The translations under genes were made by a program, and so were the position numbers. From assembly GCA_030922375.1 (NCBI GenBank), contig JAVEPB010000163.1, positions 1-45,739 of the forward strand: a DNA stretch of 45,739 nt. Reading direction: 5' to 3'. Below are positions 4,481-43,667 of the stretch, in pieces. The notes beneath the pieces were generated by a model, which saw nothing but the letters and a program-made list of their open reading frames with translations, was not told where the DNA came from and did no database searches. This DNA is from a bacterium (GTDB lineage Bacteria; UBA8248). Position 1 is the stretch's first letter; every line of letters begins with the position of its first letter.

Positions 4481-4914
4481 CTGTTCCGGGGTAAATCCCG
4501 TTTCTAGCGGTGGAGCGCTCCGACATGGCCCAAATCTCCCCCGAAGTCGGACGTTCCCGCCTATAGATATTGCAATCTTTATGCCCGCGAATTCCTCCCT
4601 CCGATCCGCTAAATTCCGGGTATTTCCGCCTATAAAGACTCGGTTTAGCCGGAATTTTCATCCCTCTTGCTGGGAAATTGACGCCACCCCCCCAGGTGAG
4701 AGGCTTACTCCCGGGTGAGGGGCTCACTCCCGGGTATTAAGGTTCCATGCCCCAGGGGAGTTGTTCCTAAAATCTCAGAGGCAGTGGTCCCCCGGTCCCG
4801 GTTGCTCCTCTCACCCGGAGCGAGAGTGTGGAGCCTGAGGGTGTGGAGCCCGAGGGGCCATGCTGGTAACCTGCCGGTAAGGGGAGCCGTTTCACTTCAA
4901 GGGAGATCAGCCGG
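4481..4914. other. Noncoding stretch with tandem palindromic repeats
   Basis: This gap lies between two divergent genes. It holds the tandem palindromes at 4695-4732 and a second tandem pair at 4826-4840 and 4841-4855 (unit GTGTGGAGCCTGAGG, one mismatch). No convincing gene or RNA was seen. It should contain the promoters of the GGDEF-like gene and of the DapA-family gene, but no clear -35/-10 pair stands out. Confidence 0.5.
4695..4732 (+). repeat. Two tandem 19-bp units, each an inverted repeat
   Basis: Unit 1 is 4695-4713 and unit 2 is 4714-4732, 17 of 19 bases identical. Unit 2 contains the perfect inverted repeat GTGAG-GGG-CTCAC; unit 1 has GTGAG-AGG-CTTAC with one mismatch. Two dyads side by side about 185 bases before a start codon look like a regulator binding array, though no regulator is identified. 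Confidence 0.5.
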
Positions 4915-36194: not shown

Positions 36195-37064
36195 ATGGTG
36201 ATCGATGCGGCGATGCTTTTTGCCCTCGGGGCGGCGTTTTCGTACGCCTGCGCCGATATGTCGCTCCGCTACGGGCTCCTGCACACCACCCCCTTCGTCG
36301 GTTCGACGGTCGGGCGCACGTTTTCGGTCCTGATTCTGGCCACCGTCGTCCTGATCTCGGGGGCCACCTTCCCGCTTCCGGGTGTTCATTACCTTTGGGT
36401 GCTTCTGGGCGGGGTGTTAAATCCCGGCTTGTTCGCCGTTTTCTTCATGTTCGGGATTTCGAAGATCGGCGTCTCCCGGGCCGCTCCCATCAAGGGGTCC
36501 TCTCCCCTCATCGCCGCTTTTTTGGCCATCGTGTTTCTCGGCGAGCGGCCCGGCCTGGTGCAGTTGGCGGGCGTTGTCCTGGTCGTCTCGGGAGTCGGCC
36601 TGATCTCATCGGGCAGGACCGAGGGCCGGTGGCGGCGCATCCATGCCCTCTGGCCCATCGCCGCCGCCGTGGTCGCCGGAACGGGCGCGATATTCTGGCG
36701 CAAGGGTCTATCCGCGTTCCCCGATCCCGTGGCGGGATCGTTGGTCGGCATGTCGGCGGCGCTGACCACGGTGACCCTTTATTCCGTCTTGTTTGAGCGC
36801 GATCAGATCGTGGATGGCTTCAGGACGGCCTGGAGGCCATTTTTGCTGGGCGGGATCGCGGGAGCCGCGGGGAATTTTTCCTACGCGAGCGCCCTTAAGG
36901 GGGGGGAGGTGTTCCGGATGGTTTCGCTCATCCAGACCTCCCCGCTCATTACGGTCGTGTTTGCGTTTGTTTTGCTCCGGAAGGTGGAGAAAATTACCTG
37001 GCGGGTTCCCGCCGGAGCGGTTCTCACCGTTTCCGGGGCCGTTCTGGTCAACTTCCGCCTTTAA
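36195..37064 (+). CDS. EamA/DMT-family transporter
   Basis: The 289-residue membrane protein has about ten hydrophobic segments in two repeats of the EamA type (first near ALGAAFSYACADM, second near ALWPIAAAVVAGTGAIFWRKG). Repeat boundaries show the usual AFLAIVFLGERPG and LLRKVEKITW turns. Such proteins export or import metabolites, often amino acids or their derivatives. Cotranscription with the M20 gene hints at export of a product of amide cleavage, but this is inference. Confidence 0.88.
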   Translation: MVIDAAMLFALGAAFSYACADMSLRYGLLHTTPFVGSTVGRTFSVLILATVVLISGATFPLPGVHYLWVLLGGVLNPGLFAVFFMFGISKIGVSRAAPIKGSSPLIAAFLAIVFLGERPGLVQLAGVVLVVSGVGLISSGRTEGRWRRIHALWPIAAAVVAGTGAIFWRKGLSAFPDPVAGSLVGMSAALTTVTLYSVLFERDQIVDGFRTAWRPFLLGGIAGAAGNFSYASALKGGEVFRMVSLIQTSPLITVVFAFVLLRKVEKITWRVPAGAVLTVSGAVLVNFRL

Positions 37065-37195
37065 GGGGGGCCCGGAGGGGGGGTGGCTTCGAGGTGGACG
37101 GCCCTGCTAAAAAGCGGTATAGGAACGGGGTTTCGAGGCTTCGGCCCCTGGGGGATTCGGTCCCCGGCCGAGGGCCGGAGCATGAACTGATGTTT

Positions 37196-37273
37196 GACCC
37201 CATCGTCCAGTCTGGCCCAGGACACCGGCCTTTCAAGCCGGCAACGCGGGTTCAAATCCCGCTGGGGTCACCA
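37196..37273 (+). tRNA. tRNA-Glu (anticodon UUC)
   Basis: The 78-base gene folds as a standard cloverleaf. The acceptor GACCCCA (37196-37202) pairs with TGGGGTC (37263-37269), followed by A and encoded CCA (37271-37273). The anticodon stem CCGGC/GCCGG encloses loop CTTTCAA with anticodon TTC at 37232-37234. The T-arm has GTTCAAATC. The sequence is close to bacterial tRNA-Glu. No integrase or second copy of its 3' end lies nearby. Confidence 0.95.
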
Positions 37274-37409
37274 TTAGTTTTCTCGGGCCTGATTTCCCGA
37301 AGCGGTCCATAGTGACCCTCCTCCCCCGAATCGGGCGGTCATTTCGCGGCGCGCGCGCAATTTTACTGCTCATCCATCCCGCGAAGTATTTCGATATTTT
37401 TTGTATTGA

Positions 37410-37697
37410 TTATTGAATTTTGAGGAAAATTCCGTATTTCGGACCGGCGGCCGAGGGTTTGGCGCCGGTGGCGGGAAAGATGGCGCTGGTTTCCGAATTC
37501 CCCGGCCGGTGAATGGGGGCCTTGGCTTCAAGGGTGACCAGGGGTATGGACGCCCGGGCCGGTTGCGTCTCGGCGGGGTAGTTATAAAGAGTGGTCAGAC
37601 ACCGATCGACCGCGGTCTTCGTCTCCGCCGCCGAAGAAGCGGCGCAAAGGGTCGAGAGCGCGCCGGCAATGATTAAAAGTCTCCAGGTTTTTTTCAC
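37410..37697 (-). CDS. Small exported protein of unknown function
   Basis: The 95-residue product begins at GTG 37697 with GGGAG seven bases upstream. Its first 25 residues (MKKTWRLLIIAGALSTLCAASS) form a good signal peptide. The mature part is rich in Pro, Ala, Thr and has a single Cys; no family is recognised. It is divergent from the ABC importer operon. Confidence 0.45.
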   Translation of the reverse strand: MKKTWRLLIIAGALSTLCAASSAAETKTAVDRCLTTLYNYPAETQPARASIPLVTLEAKAPIHRPGNSETSAIFPATGAKPSAAGPKYGIFLKIQ

Positions 37698-37792
37698 AAG
37701 CGATCTCCCGGGCCGGTATCGCCGCTCATTCCGAATCGTATCTTACGAGCGGACTGGCCGGCGGTTTGCGGCGGCCGGGCCCAAGAATATTA

Positions 37793-37821
37793 TTGACGTT
37801 TCGGGGCCTTCCGATTAGACT
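37793..37821 (+). promoter_or_regulatory. Predicted sigma-70-type promoter of the sugar ABC operon
   Basis: TTGACG (37793-37798), a 17-base spacer and TAGACT (37816-37821). It precedes a leader of about 150 bases before the ATPase ATG at 37976. This leader is AT-rich and may hold further control sites, but none was identified. Confidence 0.55.
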
Positions 37822-37975
37822 GCCCGAAAATAATACAAAATACAATTATTTTTTCAGGTGATTGATCGGGGCGTTCCCCGATTCCGATGCAAGCGAGCGC
37901 CCGATCCGATTATTTATTTGCGCACCGAAATAGGCGTATTTTATTTGAAATTCACGGGTTATCCTCGGGGGAGTA

Positions 37976-39982
37976 ATGGAGAATAAAGCAAACCTCCTAG
38001 AAATGAGAAAAATCGACAAGTCTTTTCCCGGCGTCCATGCCCTCAAGGAAGTGGATTTTGTCCTGGAGGCGGGACAGGTTCACATACTCCTCGGAGAGAA
38101 CGGCGCCGGAAAATCCACGCTCATCAAAATCCTGGCCGGAATCTACCAATCCGACAGCGGCGAGATACTCCTGGAGGGGAGCCCCACCGTTATCCCCGAC
38201 GCACGGACGGGCCGTGACCTGGGCATCAGCGTCATTTATCAGGAGTTGAACCTGGTCCCCGATCTCAGCGTAGCGAAGAATATTTATCTGGGCCGGGAGC
38301 CGGTCCTCCCCGGGATTTTAAAGAAAGTGGATTGGGATCATGTCGAGAGAGAGTCGCGCGAGGTGATGAAGCGGCTGGACGTCGATATCGACGTCCTTGC
38401 TCCGGTGAGATCGCTGAGCGTCGCGGATCAGCAGATGGTCGAAATCGCTCGGGCGCTTGCCTTCGACTGCAAGATACTCGTCATGGACGAGCCGACCTCA
38501 TCGCTCAGCGGGCATGAAATTCATGAGCTTTTCAACGCCGTGGCCCGCCTCCGGGAGCAGGGGGTGGGAATCATCTATATCTCTCACCGCCTGGATGAGG
38601 TGCATCAAATCGGCGACCAGGTAACCGTTCTCCGCGACGGCGATTACATCGGCTCCTGGGATGTGAACGAGGTTGATCTCGAATTTCTCATCACCCAGAT
38701 GGTCGGCCGGACGCTGGACGAGAAATTTCCCTGGACGCCCCGCGAGCGGGGCGAAGTGGCGCTCAAGGTCAATGGCCTCACCCGCGAGGGTGTTTTCGAG
38801 GATATCAGCTTCGACCTTCACTACGGTGAAATCGTCGGCATGTCGGGGCTCGTGGGCGCCGGCCGGACCGAGGTGGCCCGGGCCGTCATGGGCGCCGACG
38901 AGGTGGACTCGGGAACCGTCGAGATGACCCGCGCGACCCGTGAAAAAGAGGAGATCCGGCGCCTGCCGCACTACCCGGCTTGGAAGGCGGTGGTGGACAT
39001 CGTGTTGTTCGTTCTCGCTCTTCCCGTCTTCACGGTGTTCTTTCAGGGAATCTACGACCCGGTGACGCTCAACATGAATACCCCGCCCCCGCTCTTCAGC
39101 GCGACGTGGTTTTATGAGTGGATCATCGGAGGGCCGCTCTACAACATTCCGAACGGGCCGACGCCCTATCTCGCCGCGGCGGCCATCGCAATTCTCCGCC
39201 AGGCGGGGCTTTGGTTCCTGGTGCCCCAGCATGCCTGGCGGACCATGTGGCAGGACCTGGGAAGCTGGTACACGTTCGCCCTGTTCTCGATGGTCATCAC
39301 GAGCATGTTCACCCAGAATTTCTCCACCGAATGGGTCATGGTGACCGGCGGGGTGGCGATGGTGCTGGTGCGCCTCGCGTTTATCCTCACCCACGAGCGT
39401 AAATGGACCCCGACGCTGGCCATCCGCCAAGGGCTGGGACTTCTTCCCGAGGATCGTAAAGTGCAGGGGCTCACCCAGGTGCTTTCGGTGGCATTCAACA
39501 CGACAAGCGCCAATCTCGGGCGCCTCATCAACCGTTTTTTTCTCAATCTGGTGATGGAAAAAAGCCTGGTCGAAGAGCACATCGATCAGCTCAAGATTGC
39601 TACCCCCACGCAGGACACCCTGATCCGCTTCCTTTCGGGCGGCAATCAGCAGAAGGTCGTCCTCGCCAAGTGGCTCTTCCGAAGGGCGAATGTCCTTGTT
39701 TTCGACGAGCCCACGCGCGGGATCGACGTGGGCGCCAAGTTCGAGGTTCACACCCAGATGCTCAACCTCGCCAAGGAGGGAGCCGCTGTCCTGATGATAT
39801 CGAGTGAAATGCCCGAAATCCTCGGGATGAGCGACCGGGTGTTGGTGATGAGGGAGGGGCGCCTCACCGCGGACATTCCGCGGGATGAGGCGACGCAGGA
39901 GAACATACTTCGCTACGCGATGGTGGCGGATGAAAACGCGGCTGGCGCTTCGCCCGCCGGCGGCAACGGAGGAAGTCGATGA
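37976..39982 (+). CDS. Ribose-type ABC importer double ATPase with a membrane insert in its second ATPase domain
   Basis: The 668-residue protein is longer than the usual RbsA/MglA ATPase (about 500). The first nucleotide-binding domain is normal: Walker A GENGAGKST (40-48), signature near SLSVADQQM (147-155), Walker B ILVMDEP (167-173). The second has the degenerate Walker A GLVGAGRTE (291-299), then about 160 extra residues (about 318-480) with hydrophobic stretches near 338-357, 398-416, 430-447 and 453-471. It then resumes at GLGLLPEDRK (486-495) with LSGGNQQK (553-560) and Walker B VLVFDEPTRG (573-582). Four helices would return the chain to the cytoplasm. The remaining domain is intact by motif. 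It is the first gene of the ATPase-permease-permease-binding protein operon; the permease starts in its last four bases. The start is preceded by GGGGGAG. The substrate is unknown; sugar is the family default. Confidence 0.88.
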   Translation: MENKANLLEMRKIDKSFPGVHALKEVDFVLEAGQVHILLGENGAGKSTLIKILAGIYQSDSGEILLEGSPTVIPDARTGRDLGISVIYQELNLVPDLSVAKNIYLGREPVLPGILKKVDWDHVERESREVMKRLDVDIDVLAPVRSLSVADQQMVEIARALAFDCKILVMDEPTSSLSGHEIHELFNAVARLREQGVGIIYISHRLDEVHQIGDQVTVLRDGDYIGSWDVNEVDLEFLITQMVGRTLDEKFPWTPRERGEVALKVNGLTREGVFEDISFDLHYGEIVGMSGLVGAGRTEVARAVMGADEVDSGTVEMTRATREKEEIRRLPHYPAWKAVVDIVLFVLALPVFTVFFQGIYDPVTLNMNTPPPLFSATWFYEWIIGGPLYNIPNGPTPYLAAAAIAILRQAGLWFLVPQHAWRTMWQDLGSWYTFALFSMVITSMFTQNFSTEWVMVTGGVAMVLVRLAFILTHERKWTPTLAIRQGLGLLPEDRKVQGLTQVLSVAFNTTSANLGRLINRFFLNLVMEKSLVEEHIDQLKIATPTQDTLIRFLSGGNQQKVVLAKWLFRRANVLVFDEPTRGIDVGAKFEVHTQMLNLAKEGAAVLMISSEMPEILGMSDRVLVMREGRLTADIPRDEATQENILRYAMVADENAAGASPAGGNGGSR

Positions 39983-40992
39983 GCGCGGTATCGACAGTAA
40001 ACGGCGAGAAGCTGATCTTCGGGTATCCCGCCAAGGACATCCCCTGGGAGCGCGTAATTCTGATCGGCGCCTTCGCCGCGCTGATGGTTTTTTATTCTTT
40101 CGCGACGGAAAATTTCTTCACGCTGGATAATTTCACCAACGTCGTCCGGCGCGACGCCTGGCTGTTCTTTCTGGCCTATGCACAGACGATCGTGATCATC
40201 TCGGGCGGGTTCGATCTCTCCCAGGGCTCGATTATGAGTATCGTGAGCGTGATGGCCTGGAGCGCAATGCTCCACTTCGGCTTCGTCGGCGGTCTATTAA
40301 TCGGTCTTTCCGTGGGAACGCTTTGCGGGCTCGTCAACGGTTATTTCATCGGTGTTGTCAGGGTCTATCCCTTTATCGCCACCCTGGGAATGCTTTTCGT
40401 GGGAAGCGGGGTGGCCCAGCTCTGGACCGGTGGCCTCCAGATGGGAGGCTCCCGCGAGGGCGCGACGCTGCCCACCCACGTTGAAAACGCTTATGTGGCT
40501 CTCTCGAAAGGGAGCCTCGGTCCCATCCCGCTTCCGGTGATTTGGATTCTCGTCGCCCTGGGGCTGACCTGGTATCTCCTCAAATTCACCCGCTTCGGAA
40601 CCTACGTCTATGCCCTCGGGGGCAGCGAGGAAACGGCTGTTTCGGCGGGCATCAGTTTTTCGCGGATGAAAATCGGCATTTTCGCGCTGAGCGGGCTCTT
40701 TTGCGCAATCGCGGGTCTTCTCCTCTCGGCGAACGTGAGCGCGGCGGGCGAACCCCGGCTCGGCGGCGGCGACCAGCTCCTCCAGTCGATCGGCGCCACC
40801 ATCATCGGCGGAACCCACATTTTCGGCGGACGCGGAGGGGTTCTGGGCACGACGCTGGGCGCGCTTCTCATTATCTTTTTGGTGAACGGGCTGAACGTCA
40901 TGAGCATCGACACCTACCGCCAGCAGATTATCGTCGGGCTGGTCATTCTCGTCTCCATTTGGGTTAGCACCCTTCAAGAACAGAAGAAATAA
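39979..40992 (+). CDS. ABC importer permease (RbsC type), first copy
   Basis: The 337-residue membrane protein has about eight to ten helices and the BPD_transp_2 pattern (AQTIVIISGGFDLSQGSIMSI near the start; GGTHIFGGRGGVLGTTLGALL at the end). It starts inside the ATPase stop (ATGA overlap). Together with the next gene it should form a heterodimeric channel for the ATPase. The EAA-like loop region after LGGSEETAVSAGI is present. Confidence 0.9.
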   Translation: MSAVSTVNGEKLIFGYPAKDIPWERVILIGAFAALMVFYSFATENFFTLDNFTNVVRRDAWLFFLAYAQTIVIISGGFDLSQGSIMSIVSVMAWSAMLHFGFVGGLLIGLSVGTLCGLVNGYFIGVVRVYPFIATLGMLFVGSGVAQLWTGGLQMGGSREGATLPTHVENAYVALSKGSLGPIPLPVIWILVALGLTWYLLKFTRFGTYVYALGGSEETAVSAGISFSRMKIGIFALSGLFCAIAGLLLSANVSAAGEPRLGGGDQLLQSIGATIIGGTHIFGGRGGVLGTTLGALLIIFLVNGLNVMSIDTYRQQIIVGLVILVSIWVSTLQEQKK

Positions 40993-41006
40993 GGAGAAAT
41001 CTCAAA

Positions 41007-42005
41007 ATGGCAAATGTTGCCATGCCATACGAAAGCAAGCCGCTCGATATCGTCCGCTCCTGGTTATCGTTGGAGAAGTACGGCCTCCTGGTGGCGTTTG
41101 TCCTGATGATGCTGGGGTTCTCCATCCTTCAGCTTTTGGGCTACGTGAACAATTTCATCGAGGTTCACAACCTGACGAATCAGATGCGAAATGCATCTCT
41201 CCTGTTTTTCATCGTCGCGGGTCAGAGCATGGTGCTTCTTGTCTCGGGAATCGATTTGAGCCAGGGCTCCCTGCTCAGCCTTTCGAGCGTCATCATGGCT
41301 CAGGGAATTCTCGACTTCGGCATCGCCGTGGGCGTGCTCATGGGGTTCGGCGTCGCCGTCATGTTCGGATTCATCAACGGATTCTTGGTCGGCAGGGTGA
41401 AAATCCAGCCGTTTATCGTCACCCTGAGCATGCTTTTCATCTGCGCGGGGATCGCCCTCGTCTTTACGGGCGGACGCACCATTCACCAGTTCACCAGCGC
41501 GCAGAAGGACATCCTTCAGACAATCGGGCTTACCGATTTTTTCCATATACCGGGGACCATGTTTATCGCAATCGCCTTCTTTGTTGTCCTTCATATCCTC
41601 CTGACGCGCACCGCCCTGGGGCGGGCGATTTACCTGACGGGCGGAAACGAAGAGGCCGCCCGCCTCTCGGGGATCGACACCGGCAAGGTGAAGCTCATCT
41701 GCTACCTCATCAGCGGTTTCACCGTGGCCTTTACGTCGTTTCTTTATCTGGCCCGGCTACCCGCGACAAACGGGCTCGCCGGTTTTCAGCTTGAATTTCA
41801 GTCCCTGGCGGCCACCGTCGTCGGAGGCACGACGTTCCACGGCGGCGAGGGCGGCGTCATCCAGGCGATGCTGGGAACTTTTTTCATCGTATTTTTGCTG
41901 AACGGCCTGATATTGCTGGGAGTGGGCACCTTCGCCCGGGAAGTCGCCTTGGGGGTGATGCTCATCGCCGCAGTCACTATCAGCGCCCGCCGGCGACGGG
42001 AATAG
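41007..42005 (+). CDS. ABC importer permease (RbsC type), second copy
   Basis: The 332-residue membrane protein is related to its neighbour and has the same marks (MVLLVSGIDLSQGSLLSL, YLTGGNEEAARLSGID, GGTTFHGGEGGVIQAMLGTFF). GGAG lies 12 bases before the ATG, 14 bases after the first permease. The two different permeases replace the usual single homodimeric RbsC-type permease, as in some other sugar importers. Confidence 0.9.
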   Translation: MANVAMPYESKPLDIVRSWLSLEKYGLLVAFVLMMLGFSILQLLGYVNNFIEVHNLTNQMRNASLLFFIVAGQSMVLLVSGIDLSQGSLLSLSSVIMAQGILDFGIAVGVLMGFGVAVMFGFINGFLVGRVKIQPFIVTLSMLFICAGIALVFTGGRTIHQFTSAQKDILQTIGLTDFFHIPGTMFIAIAFFVVLHILLTRTALGRAIYLTGGNEEAARLSGIDTGKVKLICYLISGFTVAFTSFLYLARLPATNGLAGFQLEFQSLAATVVGGTTFHGGEGGVIQAMLGTFFIVFLLNGLILLGVGTFAREVALGVMLIAAVTISARRRRE

Positions 42006-42154
42006 TTTGCCGGAGGAAATTTTCGATATCGATTTTCCGAGAAGAGGAGGAGATCAATATCCAGGAAATCTGCGGTGTTCTGAATCTATGCTGAATCGTG
42101 GAACCACTGGAGTCCATGTTTGTGTGTTTTTCCTTTAAGGAAAAGGAGGAAGCG

Positions 42155-43225
42155 ATGAGAACGAAACTGTTTCGCTCACTGACACTTCTTGCCGTGATGG
42201 CGGCTTTCCTGTTCACCGCCACCTTCGCGGCGCCGAAGGCCGAGGCGGCCAAGGCGAAGAAGCCCTACAGGATCGCCGTCGTCGTGCCGAACGGCGTTGA
42301 CCCCTACTTCTTCTCGAAGTGGTTCGGCAGCGTCCGTGAAGCAAAACGGCTGGGCGTCTCCGTCACCATGTTCGACGCGGGCGGGTATGAATTTTTGCCC
42401 AAGCAGGTGGCCCACGTCGAGGACATCATCGCCGCCAAGTACGACGGCATGATCATCTGCCCGATCAGCACAAAGGGCATGGTCAACGCCGTCCACAAGG
42501 CGATTGACGCGGGAATGCCGGTCGTCGTGGACAACATCGACCTCGACAGCGACCGCGTAAAAAACCGCGTCATGAAGAACAGCTACGAACTCGGTCTGTT
42601 TATCGGCGCCGCGATGGCCGAGGCCGTCGGACACGAGGGCAAGGTCTTCATGCTGCCCGGCCCGAGCGGCATCGAGATGGTCACTTCCATGGCCAAGGGT
42701 TTTGAGGACTATCTGAGCCACTATCCCAAGATCAAGATCGTGGCCAAGGAGTTCACGAAATCGAACGTGCAGGCGGCCTATCAGACGGCCGAGGACCTTC
42801 TGAAAAAGCACCCCGACGTCGCCGGCATCTATCCCTGGGCGACCCTTATCGCGCGCGGTACGACCGACGCCGTCAAGGCCTTCTCCAAGGCCAACGGCTT
42901 CAAACCCGGCAAGATCAAGATCGTGACGCACAACATCGCCGTCGGCGTCGAGACGGATATCCGGGACGGCTGGACGTATGGCGCGGTGCTGGCCGAGCAG
43001 ATCGGCATGGCGAGTCAGGCCGTGAGTAACGTGGTGGACCTCATCGAGGGGCGTCAGCCTCCGGGAGCGCCTCACCGGGGCGGCACGCTTTCCTACATCA
43101 AGAACTTCATGGTGTACAAAAGCAGCCTCGACAAGATCGACCGGAGCGGGATGCAGGCTCCCAAGGAGTGGATGATCAAGCGGGCGAAGCGGGCGAAAAA
43201 CATCGTCGGCGGAAAACGCCGCTAG
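42155..43225 (+). CDS. Periplasmic sugar-type binding protein of the ABC importer
   Basis: From ATG 42155 (AGGAGG seven bases upstream) the protein has 356 residues with a signal peptide (MRTKLFRSLTLLAVMAAFLFTATFAAPKAEA). The rest has the LacI-like two-lobe binding fold (RIAVVVPNGVDPYFFSKWFGSV, then YDGMIICPISTKGMVNAVHKA). These are features of the family 4 (ribose/TorT type) binding proteins. It is last in the operon, 149 bases after the second permease, and a strong terminator follows. The binding residues do not settle the substrate. Confidence 0.9.
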   Translation: MRTKLFRSLTLLAVMAAFLFTATFAAPKAEAAKAKKPYRIAVVVPNGVDPYFFSKWFGSVREAKRLGVSVTMFDAGGYEFLPKQVAHVEDIIAAKYDGMIICPISTKGMVNAVHKAIDAGMPVVVDNIDLDSDRVKNRVMKNSYELGLFIGAAMAEAVGHEGKVFMLPGPSGIEMVTSMAKGFEDYLSHYPKIKIVAKEFTKSNVQAAYQTAEDLLKKHPDVAGIYPWATLIARGTTDAVKAFSKANGFKPGKIKIVTHNIAVGVETDIRDGWTYGAVLAEQIGMASQAVSNVVDLIEGRQPPGAPHRGGTLSYIKNFMVYKSSLDKIDRSGMQAPKEWMIKRAKRAKNIVGGKRR

Positions 43226-43279: not shown

Positions 43280-43400
43280 CGTCCGGCCGCATGTAAGAAA
43301 AGGCGTTGGCGAGGCAAATTGATCCTGGTTGTTCGCGCGGCTCGCGGTATCGGGAGCGGTCCCCGGCCGAGTCTTGACGCGTCACTCCCTGAGGGCCCCT

Positions 43401-43667
43401 ATGCTGAAAGTCTCTGAATCGGCCTGTGCTAATCTGTCCAAGTTGCTCTCCGATTCGGGCGCTCCCGAAGGCGCCTGCGTCCGGTTCATCCTCGAAGGAG
43501 AGGAGCTGTCGCTCACGCTCGACGGCGAAAAGCCGGGAGACGCGACATTCTTCCACGAGGGCAAAACGGTTCTTGTCATGGACGAGGATGTTTCGCAGAG
43601 CCTCTCCAACAAGACGCTCGATGTGGAAGATTCGGAAGATGGGCTTCAGCTCACAATAAAGGACTGA
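43401..43667 (+). CDS. HesB/IscA-like protein without cluster-binding cysteines
   Basis: The 88-residue protein from ATG 43401 has the start of the A-type iron-sulfur carrier fold (MLKVSESACANLSKLL, then VRFILEGEELSLTLDGEKPGD). The usual three cysteines that bind the cluster (GCxG...CGCG positions) are absent; the C-terminal part reads TLDVEDSEDGLQLTIKD. It therefore cannot act as a normal IscA. It may bind another partner, or the family match may be only by fold. It converges on the molybdoenzyme gene with nine bases between the stops. Confidence 0.6.
   Translation: MLKVSESACANLSKLLSDSGAPEGACVRFILEGEELSLTLDGEKPGDATFFHEGKTVLVMDEDVSQSLSNKTLDVEDSEDGLQLTIKD

Follow-up and report, generated by a model that had tools for sequence, protein, structure and literature searches.

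A basic rule of bacterial ABC importers is the split between a permease in the membrane and a soluble ATPase, and the known ATPases of the RbsA/AraG/MglA type are soluble. The window analyzed here, a stretch of 45,739 nucleotides (positions 1 to 45,739 of contig JAVEPB010000163.1, assembly GCA_030922375.1) from a bacterium of the GTDB phylum UBA8248, carries a gene that may not follow this rule. Its initial annotation described an ATPase of the ribose type with hydrophobic helices lodged inside the second nucleotide-binding domain (NBD). The locus thus raises the question of whether the extra segment is a genuine part of the protein, whether it spans the membrane, and what it might do there.

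An RbsA/AraG-type ATPase gene in a regular importer operon

The reading frame, initially described as unbroken, is open throughout from 37976 to 39982 on the forward strand and yields a product of 668 amino acids. Its parts are as follows.

37976..39982, + strand: RbsA/AraG-type double ATP-binding protein with nested insert, 668 aa (open reading frame; best NCBIfam match AraG)
37976..38710, + strand: first NBD, residues 1-245, with the canonical Walker A GENGAGKST and the degenerate signature LSVAD (PF00005 at residues 23-175; motifs in 20 of 22 A1 rows)
38756..38926, + strand: second NBD, first part, residues 261-317, with the degenerate Walker A GLVGAGRTE (22 of 22 A1 rows; strands and helix in the AlphaFold2 model)
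38927..39409, + strand: insert, residues 318-478, net gain of 152 residues, a conserved lineage-specific domain (homologue matches, alignments, tree)
39410..39922, + strand: second NBD, resumed part, residues 479-649, with the Q-loop region PEDRK, the signature LSGGNQQK and the Walker B FDEPTRGID (21 of 22 A1 rows)

PF00005 matched the protein in three stretches, which amount to two ABC domains on one chain, and both domains keep the motifs of a ribose-type double ATPase that had been attributed to them. GENGAGKST is present in 20 of the 22 rows of alignment A1 and GLVGAGRTE, degenerate and without the lysine, in all 22; every row that is not truncated at a motif site retains the motif (P0004 and P0019, which are without the first-half motifs, and P0022, which is without the later second-half ones, are truncated there). 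The two ABC domains, the canonical first and degenerate second Walker A and the second-half LSGGNQQK are all shared with the RbsA, AraG and MglA ATPases of CUT2 importers. Such motifs leave ATPases of this family with a single canonical composite ATP site.

The ten best NCBIfam models were all full-length double ATPases of CUT2-like importers, with scores of 347 to 550 bits (AraG 550, xylose 516, RbsA 514 and, lowest of the ten, a putative B6 transporter 347); each aligned in two stretches, the best of which stopped at residues 307 to 325. The protein stayed below the curated NCBIfam cut-offs for RbsA, AraG, XylG, MglA, GguA, YtfR, AlsA and LsrA (for AraG, 550 bits against an equivalog cut-off of 689), and we therefore assigned no substrate. 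Three genes follow that of the ATPase.

39979..40992, + strand: permease 1, 337 aa, BPD_transp_2 (PF02653 at residues 59-325)
41007..42005, + strand: permease 2, 332 aa, BPD_transp_2 (PF02653 at residues 57-322)
42098..43225, + strand: periplasmic substrate-binding protein, Peripla_BP_4, nearest TorT (PF13407; TorT models)

Two PF02653 permeases with a PF13407 binding protein are likewise what RbsA/AraG/MglA CUT2 importers have. The regular operon with overlapping genes that was first described is borne out by a 4-base overlap (ATGA, 39979-39982) between the ATPase stop and the permease 1 start, and by the order ATPase-permease-permease-binding protein, which is kept in all eight loci with full flanks. 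By the family features tested, the window protein is a CUT2/RbsA-type ATPase subunit of an ABC importer. A lack of membrane segments is usual in such subunits but, in our view, does not define them.

The insert occupies the site just before the Q-loop

The second Walker A and PEDRK are separated by 196 residues in 20 of the 21 carriers in alignment A3 (the motif search missed the remaining one, the fragment P0019), whereas the separation is 43 to 44 residues in insert-free homologues. This spacing, together with the missed equivalog cut-offs, sets the protein apart from RbsA/AraG/MglA-type ATPases. The shorter distance was measured in 61 of the 98 insert-free homologues; among the matches listed, these 98 are 487 to 530 aa long, including the 37 that the motif search missed, and at most 59% identical. 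The measured net gain of 152 residues is in line with the roughly 160 extra residues claimed at first, while the figure of about 30 given for standard proteins gives way to 43 to 44, a number that varies with where the count starts. The length of the insert is identical in 21 of the 22 A1 rows, and the remaining row is truncated.

At the corresponding site, the insert-free relative P0034 (within loci L018 and L038) reads GNIVLRGERLRPRTPRDTIRRGLGL, and the window protein reads GTVEM, then the insert, then WTPTLAIRQGLGL. From this comparison, the insert takes the place of the turn after a beta strand, just before the Q-loop. The base composition of the insert is close to that of the remaining gene.

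A segment of this kind could in principle be an artefact, namely, a chimeric assembly, a frameshift or a spliced-out element such as an intein or intron. The host genome is a metagenome-assembled genome (MAG) with 7.47% contamination, and it contains a second, broken copy of the 5' part of the ATPase gene. Against this stand the occurrence of the in-frame insert across many assemblies and the purifying selection that acts on it. A chimeric assembly is excluded, since the insert recurs at one position in many assemblies. Pfam gave 18 matches for the complete ATPase, and no intein family was one of them. An intron or other RNA element was rejected as well: the sole Rfam family found in 37000-43000 was tRNA, a tRNA-Glu (ttc) at 37196-37273 (+), upstream of the operon and outside the ATPase gene. 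We therefore give an artefactual origin a negligible probability.

Two assembly irregularities were seen along the way. The broken copy (locus L002, G000:C91:2800-5853) is 97% identical to ATPase residues 1-201 over locus positions 1501-2103 and then continues in nonmatching sequence; it likely represents a second strain in the bin, given the 7.47% contamination, or a chimeric contig. In genome G001 (L020, G001:C539), the ATPase gene has a frameshift near residue 532 (near locus position 4543) on a contig with a coverage of 5.9, and this break is probably an assembly error.

Homologues, distribution and origin of the insert

The initial annotation had proposed a search for relatives of the insert, and such relatives were found in related proteins and genomes and in the same operon context. 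With the insert alone as the query, 21 proteins matched (E values of 6.7e-102 to 3.4e-58, identities of 61 to 95%). The full-length query, for which the 7998 candidates sharing most words were scored and the best 120 listed, added the insert-bearing P0024. At least 22 other database proteins thus bear the insert, three of them fragments, and the contigs on which it occurs are up to 2.9 Mb long. An absence of homologues, an assembly chimera and a lack of membrane helices had been named beforehand as outcomes that would overturn the description; none of the three was encountered, as there are at least 22 homologues from many assemblies and the helices are predicted.

Family-level and phylum-level searches of the host lineage gave the identical 18 genomes. 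Scanned with two peptide patterns only, 10 of them, the host counted, carry the insert, once per genome. Among the good-quality genomes (at least 90% complete, at most 5% contaminated), a set to which the host does not belong, the insert was found in 7 of 11; three of the eight genomes without it are only 67 to 79% complete. The eight contig loci with the insert come from the same genomes as eight of the nine other carriers, and the two counts are not independent. Passages in two papers touch on this phylum, one mentioning UBA8248 alongside Tectomicrobia (PMC10839748) and the other recording it from sponges (PMC9531527).

A search for the insert in 386 genomes returned the 10 known carriers and one match in genome G094, which we took as chance (E value of 0.00345, 18.2 bits, model positions 75-123). 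A profile search for a free-standing version, with candidates of 0.55 to 1.75 times the 159-aa query, gave a single match at an E value of ≤10, P0023, which was discarded as a 230-aa fragment that itself has an ABC domain. Judged by the searches made, which found no relative in another setting, the insert appears to be an orphan domain.

A tree of the NBDs only, with the insert columns left out, drew on 77 rows of the 119-row alignment, 21 with the insert and 56 without it. It placed all 21 carriers on one side of one branch with a long stem (length of 0.57; SH-aLRT of 100, by a quick method). On this tree, the insert arose once, by a single change.

A predicted four-helix membrane domain

The AlphaFold2 model calculated with 119 sequences (mean pLDDT of 80.6, pTM of 0.52) superseded one made from the 22 close sequences only (pLDDT of 48.4). 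It shows four long helices inside an otherwise normal ABC domain: the helices of the insert run over residues 322-328, 335-346/348-356, 376-384, 396-415, 421-445 and 451-473, and the second NBD restarts with a strand at 487-490. The placement of the insert relative to the NBDs and the structure of the loops are unsure because of the pTM of 0.52 and the pLDDT of about 47 to 67 in outer loop 1. The predicted features are listed below.

38978..39043, + strand: TM1 (predicted), residues 335-356, D341 invariant (AlphaFold2, hydropathy)
39044..39160, + strand: outer (periplasmic) loop 1 (predicted), residues 357-395, QGIYDP..LNM..PP...S..WFYEW..G.P, 21 of 39 columns invariant (alignment)
39161..39220, + strand: TM2 (predicted), residues 396-415, R408 and Q409 invariant, hydropathy borderline (AlphaFold2, hydropathy)
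39236..39310, + strand: TM3 (predicted), residues 421-445, D427 invariant (AlphaFold2, hydropathy)
39311..39325, + strand: outer (periplasmic) loop 2 (predicted), residues 446-450, TQNF., 4 of 5 columns invariant (alignment)
39326..39394, + strand: TM4 (predicted), residues 451-473, E452 (outer end) and R466 invariant (AlphaFold2, hydropathy)

Hydropathy was scored on the octanol and Kyte-Doolittle scales, and the best 19-mer of each of the 98 insert-free ATPases served as the control. On the octanol scale, TM1 went beyond the best 19-mer of all 98 controls in 21 of 21 proteins, TM3 in 12, TM4 in 9 and TM2 in 1. The medians were -12.2, -10.0, -8.5 and -4.6, respectively, compared with a best value of -8.6 and a median of -2.6 in the insert-free ATPases; the best stretches in the carriers' own NBDs reached -3.8, and segments of the operon's own permeases ranged from -14.5 to -3.0. 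By Kyte-Doolittle, only TM1 (2.32 to 2.83) lay throughout above 2.1, the highest insert-free value; the range of the insert-free ATPases takes in TM2, TM3 and most of TM4 (medians of 1.29, 1.67 and 2.02, with an insert-free median of 1.35). By hydropathy, then, TM1 is unmistakable as a membrane segment, TM3 and TM4 are likely ones and TM2 is borderline. The four hydrophobic helices claimed initially are all present as long helices in the AlphaFold2 model, and hydropathy endorses them to these different degrees.

Positive charges are concentrated in the two linkers and, to a degree, in the short inner loop, and the outer loops have almost none. Mean K+R counts were 3.7 in the 17-residue N-terminal linker and 1.8 in the 7-residue C-terminal linker, compared with outer-loop values of 0.43 (loop 1, 39 residues) and 0.1 (loop 2). 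Four crossings with the ends inside fit because the ABC domain must close on either side of the insert. We thus predict that the insert is a four-helix transmembrane domain with both ends in the cytoplasm; the even number of helices and the positive-inside pattern, both predicted, agree with the return of the chain to the cytoplasm proposed at the outset.

Some of the helices might instead lie flat on the membrane or dock onto the permeases as amphipathic hairpins, with, e.g., only TM1 and TM4 crossing. The borderline TM2, with R408 and Q409 in mid-helix, would suit such an arrangement, as would the Kyte-Doolittle values of TM3, which stay within the range of insert-free ATPases. On the octanol scale, however, TM3 exceeds the best control stretch in 12 of 21 proteins, and the loop charges alternate as four crossings predict; we consider this arrangement highly unlikely.

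Domain, structure and literature searches

Pfam scans of 17 inserts gave scattered weak matches only and no known domain. PDR_CDR (PF06422), a region of fungal PDR-type ABC transporters, matched 10 of the 17 at an E value of ≤10, the window's own insert not among them. Its best match, to the insert of P0006 (21.5 bits, E value of 2.2e-4), covered 34 of 92 positions, and its gathering cut-off of 20.5 bits was reached by one of the five homologues scanned. This short match, missing from the window's own insert, is most likely due to chance, and PDR_CDR was rejected as the family of the insert. RseC_MucC matched 7 of the 17 inserts with a best E value of only 0.03, and a search of solved structures by sequence gave a best E value of 0.82. 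With the whole model as the query, the best 50 rows of Foldseek and of VIA-align were ABC proteins matched via their ATPase domains, which leaves these searches silent on the fold of the insert.

The initial annotation held that such a protein had not been described for RbsA/MglA. This agrees with the literature matches listed on ABC ATPases, titles and abstract openings from a selection with few subscription journals, among which there was no membrane domain nested in an ABC ATPase.

Conservation peaks in the predicted outer loops

Selection was estimated from 9 genes (36 pairs), from which saturated pairs were excluded (13 of 36 for the insert and 18 of 36 for each NBD). The median dN/dS was 0.126 for the insert (23 of 36 pairs usable at dS<2); the NBDs had 0.041 and 0.025, each from 18 of the 36 pairs. 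The insert is therefore constrained, though less than the ATPase. Within it, TM1 plus outer loop 1 gave 0.064 (24 pairs), and TM2-TM4, the fastest part, gave 0.178 (31 pairs). These ratios show purifying selection on the insert that is weaker than that on the ATPase domains.

Mean entropy was 0.43 and 0.40 bits in the outer loops, 0.78 to 1.03 in the helices and 0.41 to 0.47 in the NBDs; the contrast between loops and helices was matched by 4 of 139 circular shifts (a count that includes the unshifted profile). Within the insert, the predicted outer loops are conserved best, on a par with the ATPase domains, and invariant letters in these loops and where TM4 begins include QGIYDP, LNM, WFYEW and TQNF..EW. 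This pattern bears on the explanation by a plain anchor, in which the helices only hold the ATPase at the membrane. Although hydropathy and the charge pattern would be accounted for, a plain anchor should keep its hydrophobicity and not 21 of 39 periplasmic columns exactly. With loops on the predicted periplasmic side far more conserved than the helices, an anchor and nothing more is a poor fit, and we regard it as quite unlikely.

Charged residues are also conserved within the helices. All 21 proteins share D341, R408, D427 and R466, which are set 6, 7, 6 and 7 residues, respectively, into TM1 to TM4 as counted from the cytoplasmic side. The chance of such a layer is about 0.001 under uniform placement, a value computed post hoc and given the helix ends of the model.

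The insert replaces no part of the permeases

Both permeases are full-length PF02653 proteins, with nine hydrophobic peaks each (10 and 9 in those of an insert-free relative), and permease 1 aligns end to end with the permease of the insert-free relative. The insert therefore replaces no lost part, and the idea that it stands in for a missing permease helix was dropped, as no helix was seen to be lost. Of the two roles first suggested, a membrane anchor or an accessory channel piece, the latter finds no support, the permeases being full-length; the former is supported by hydropathy, the positive-inside pattern, the even helix number and the charge layer, all of them predictions.

An insert-free relative in the same family (G009; 56% and 65% identical over the two parts) shares the gene order and has a TorT-like binding protein. 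With the same operon and without the insert, it indicates that the insert is dispensable for this type of transporter. A TorT-like binding protein as the reason for the insert was rejected likewise, the insert-free relative having one too.

Proposed role of the insert

We lean, with some reserve, towards a reading in which the insert tethers the ATPase beside the two permeases and touches either the binding protein or the permeases on the periplasmic side. The four-helix module would sit next to the permease pair and hold the ATPase there, and the two Asp and two Arg residues (D341, R408, D427 and R466) would form an intramembrane layer that keeps the helix bundle together. The conserved aromatic, proline-rich periplasmic loop could then meet the binding protein or the permease loops, and a periplasmic state, such as that of a docked, loaded binding protein, might be passed to the interface of the Q-loop and the coupling helix. 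The single canonical ATP site would be left undisturbed, because the NBD that holds the insert is the one with a degenerate Walker A.

A different function, sensing or regulation, would have the periplasmic loop bind a small ligand and shut down or license the ATPase, with tethering as a by-product. The predicted outer loops, best conserved and rich in invariant aromatics with some acidic residues, would suit a binding site, and the attachment directly before the Q-loop would suit control of the ATPase. On the other hand, no ligand-binding domain was recognized in the Pfam scans or in the search of solved structures, loop 1 has only about 39 residues, and no regulatory gene was noticed alongside the insert; ligand sensing as the main function seems doubtful to us. 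It is similarly improbable, in our estimate, that the insert makes the degenerate NBD a transmembrane relay, by which the periplasmic side (the binding protein or a ligand at the aromatic loop) would act on the Q-loop and bypass the coupling helices of the permeases. If that relay were real, the protein would give the first case of an ATPase subunit acting as a membrane receptor in its own right, and the importer would have a new architecture.

Tethering with periplasmic contact, the reading preferred here, can be set beside known cases. Insertions elsewhere in ABC domains, i.e., the regulatory insertion in NBD1 of CFTR, the arm of ABC-F proteins and the helix-loop-helix of ABCE1, are soluble segments; the window protein resembles them in having an extra segment inside an ABC domain but differs in that the segment is a predicted four-helix membrane domain. 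In ABC exporters whose membrane and ATPase domains are fused, and with accessory membrane domains such as TMD0, the parts are joined end to end. They too have membrane and ATPase parts on one chain, whereas in the window ATPase the predicted membrane part is nested in the NBD and two separate permeases are retained.

If the prediction is true, a conserved membrane domain within an ATPase domain would break the split between permease and ATPase, and it would mean that four membrane helices can be accommodated in an ABC domain next to its Q-loop. It would also provide a natural handle on the old question of how a signal from the loaded binding protein outside reaches the ATPase across the membrane.

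Other features of the locus

The binding protein resembles TorT, the periplasmic protein of the TMAO reductase system, yet adjoins ABC permeases. It scored 100.3 and 73.7 bits against TorT models, both under the cut-off, and its start, judged by eye, is likely at 42155, before a signal-peptide-like stretch. The insert-free locus L038 likewise has a TorT-like binding protein.

Between the binding-protein and oxidoreductase genes lies a 112-aa open frame (43329-43664, +), with no Pfam or NCBIfam match at an E value of 1e-5; tblastn against 11 loci gave no match either. The oxidoreductase neighborhood is conserved, and a functional link to the importer is not evident: a sulfite-dehydrogenase/MsrP-like molybdopterin oxidoreductase (PF00174; 43680-44765, -, in the window) faces the operon downstream in all eight full-flank loci (in the range L020-L027).
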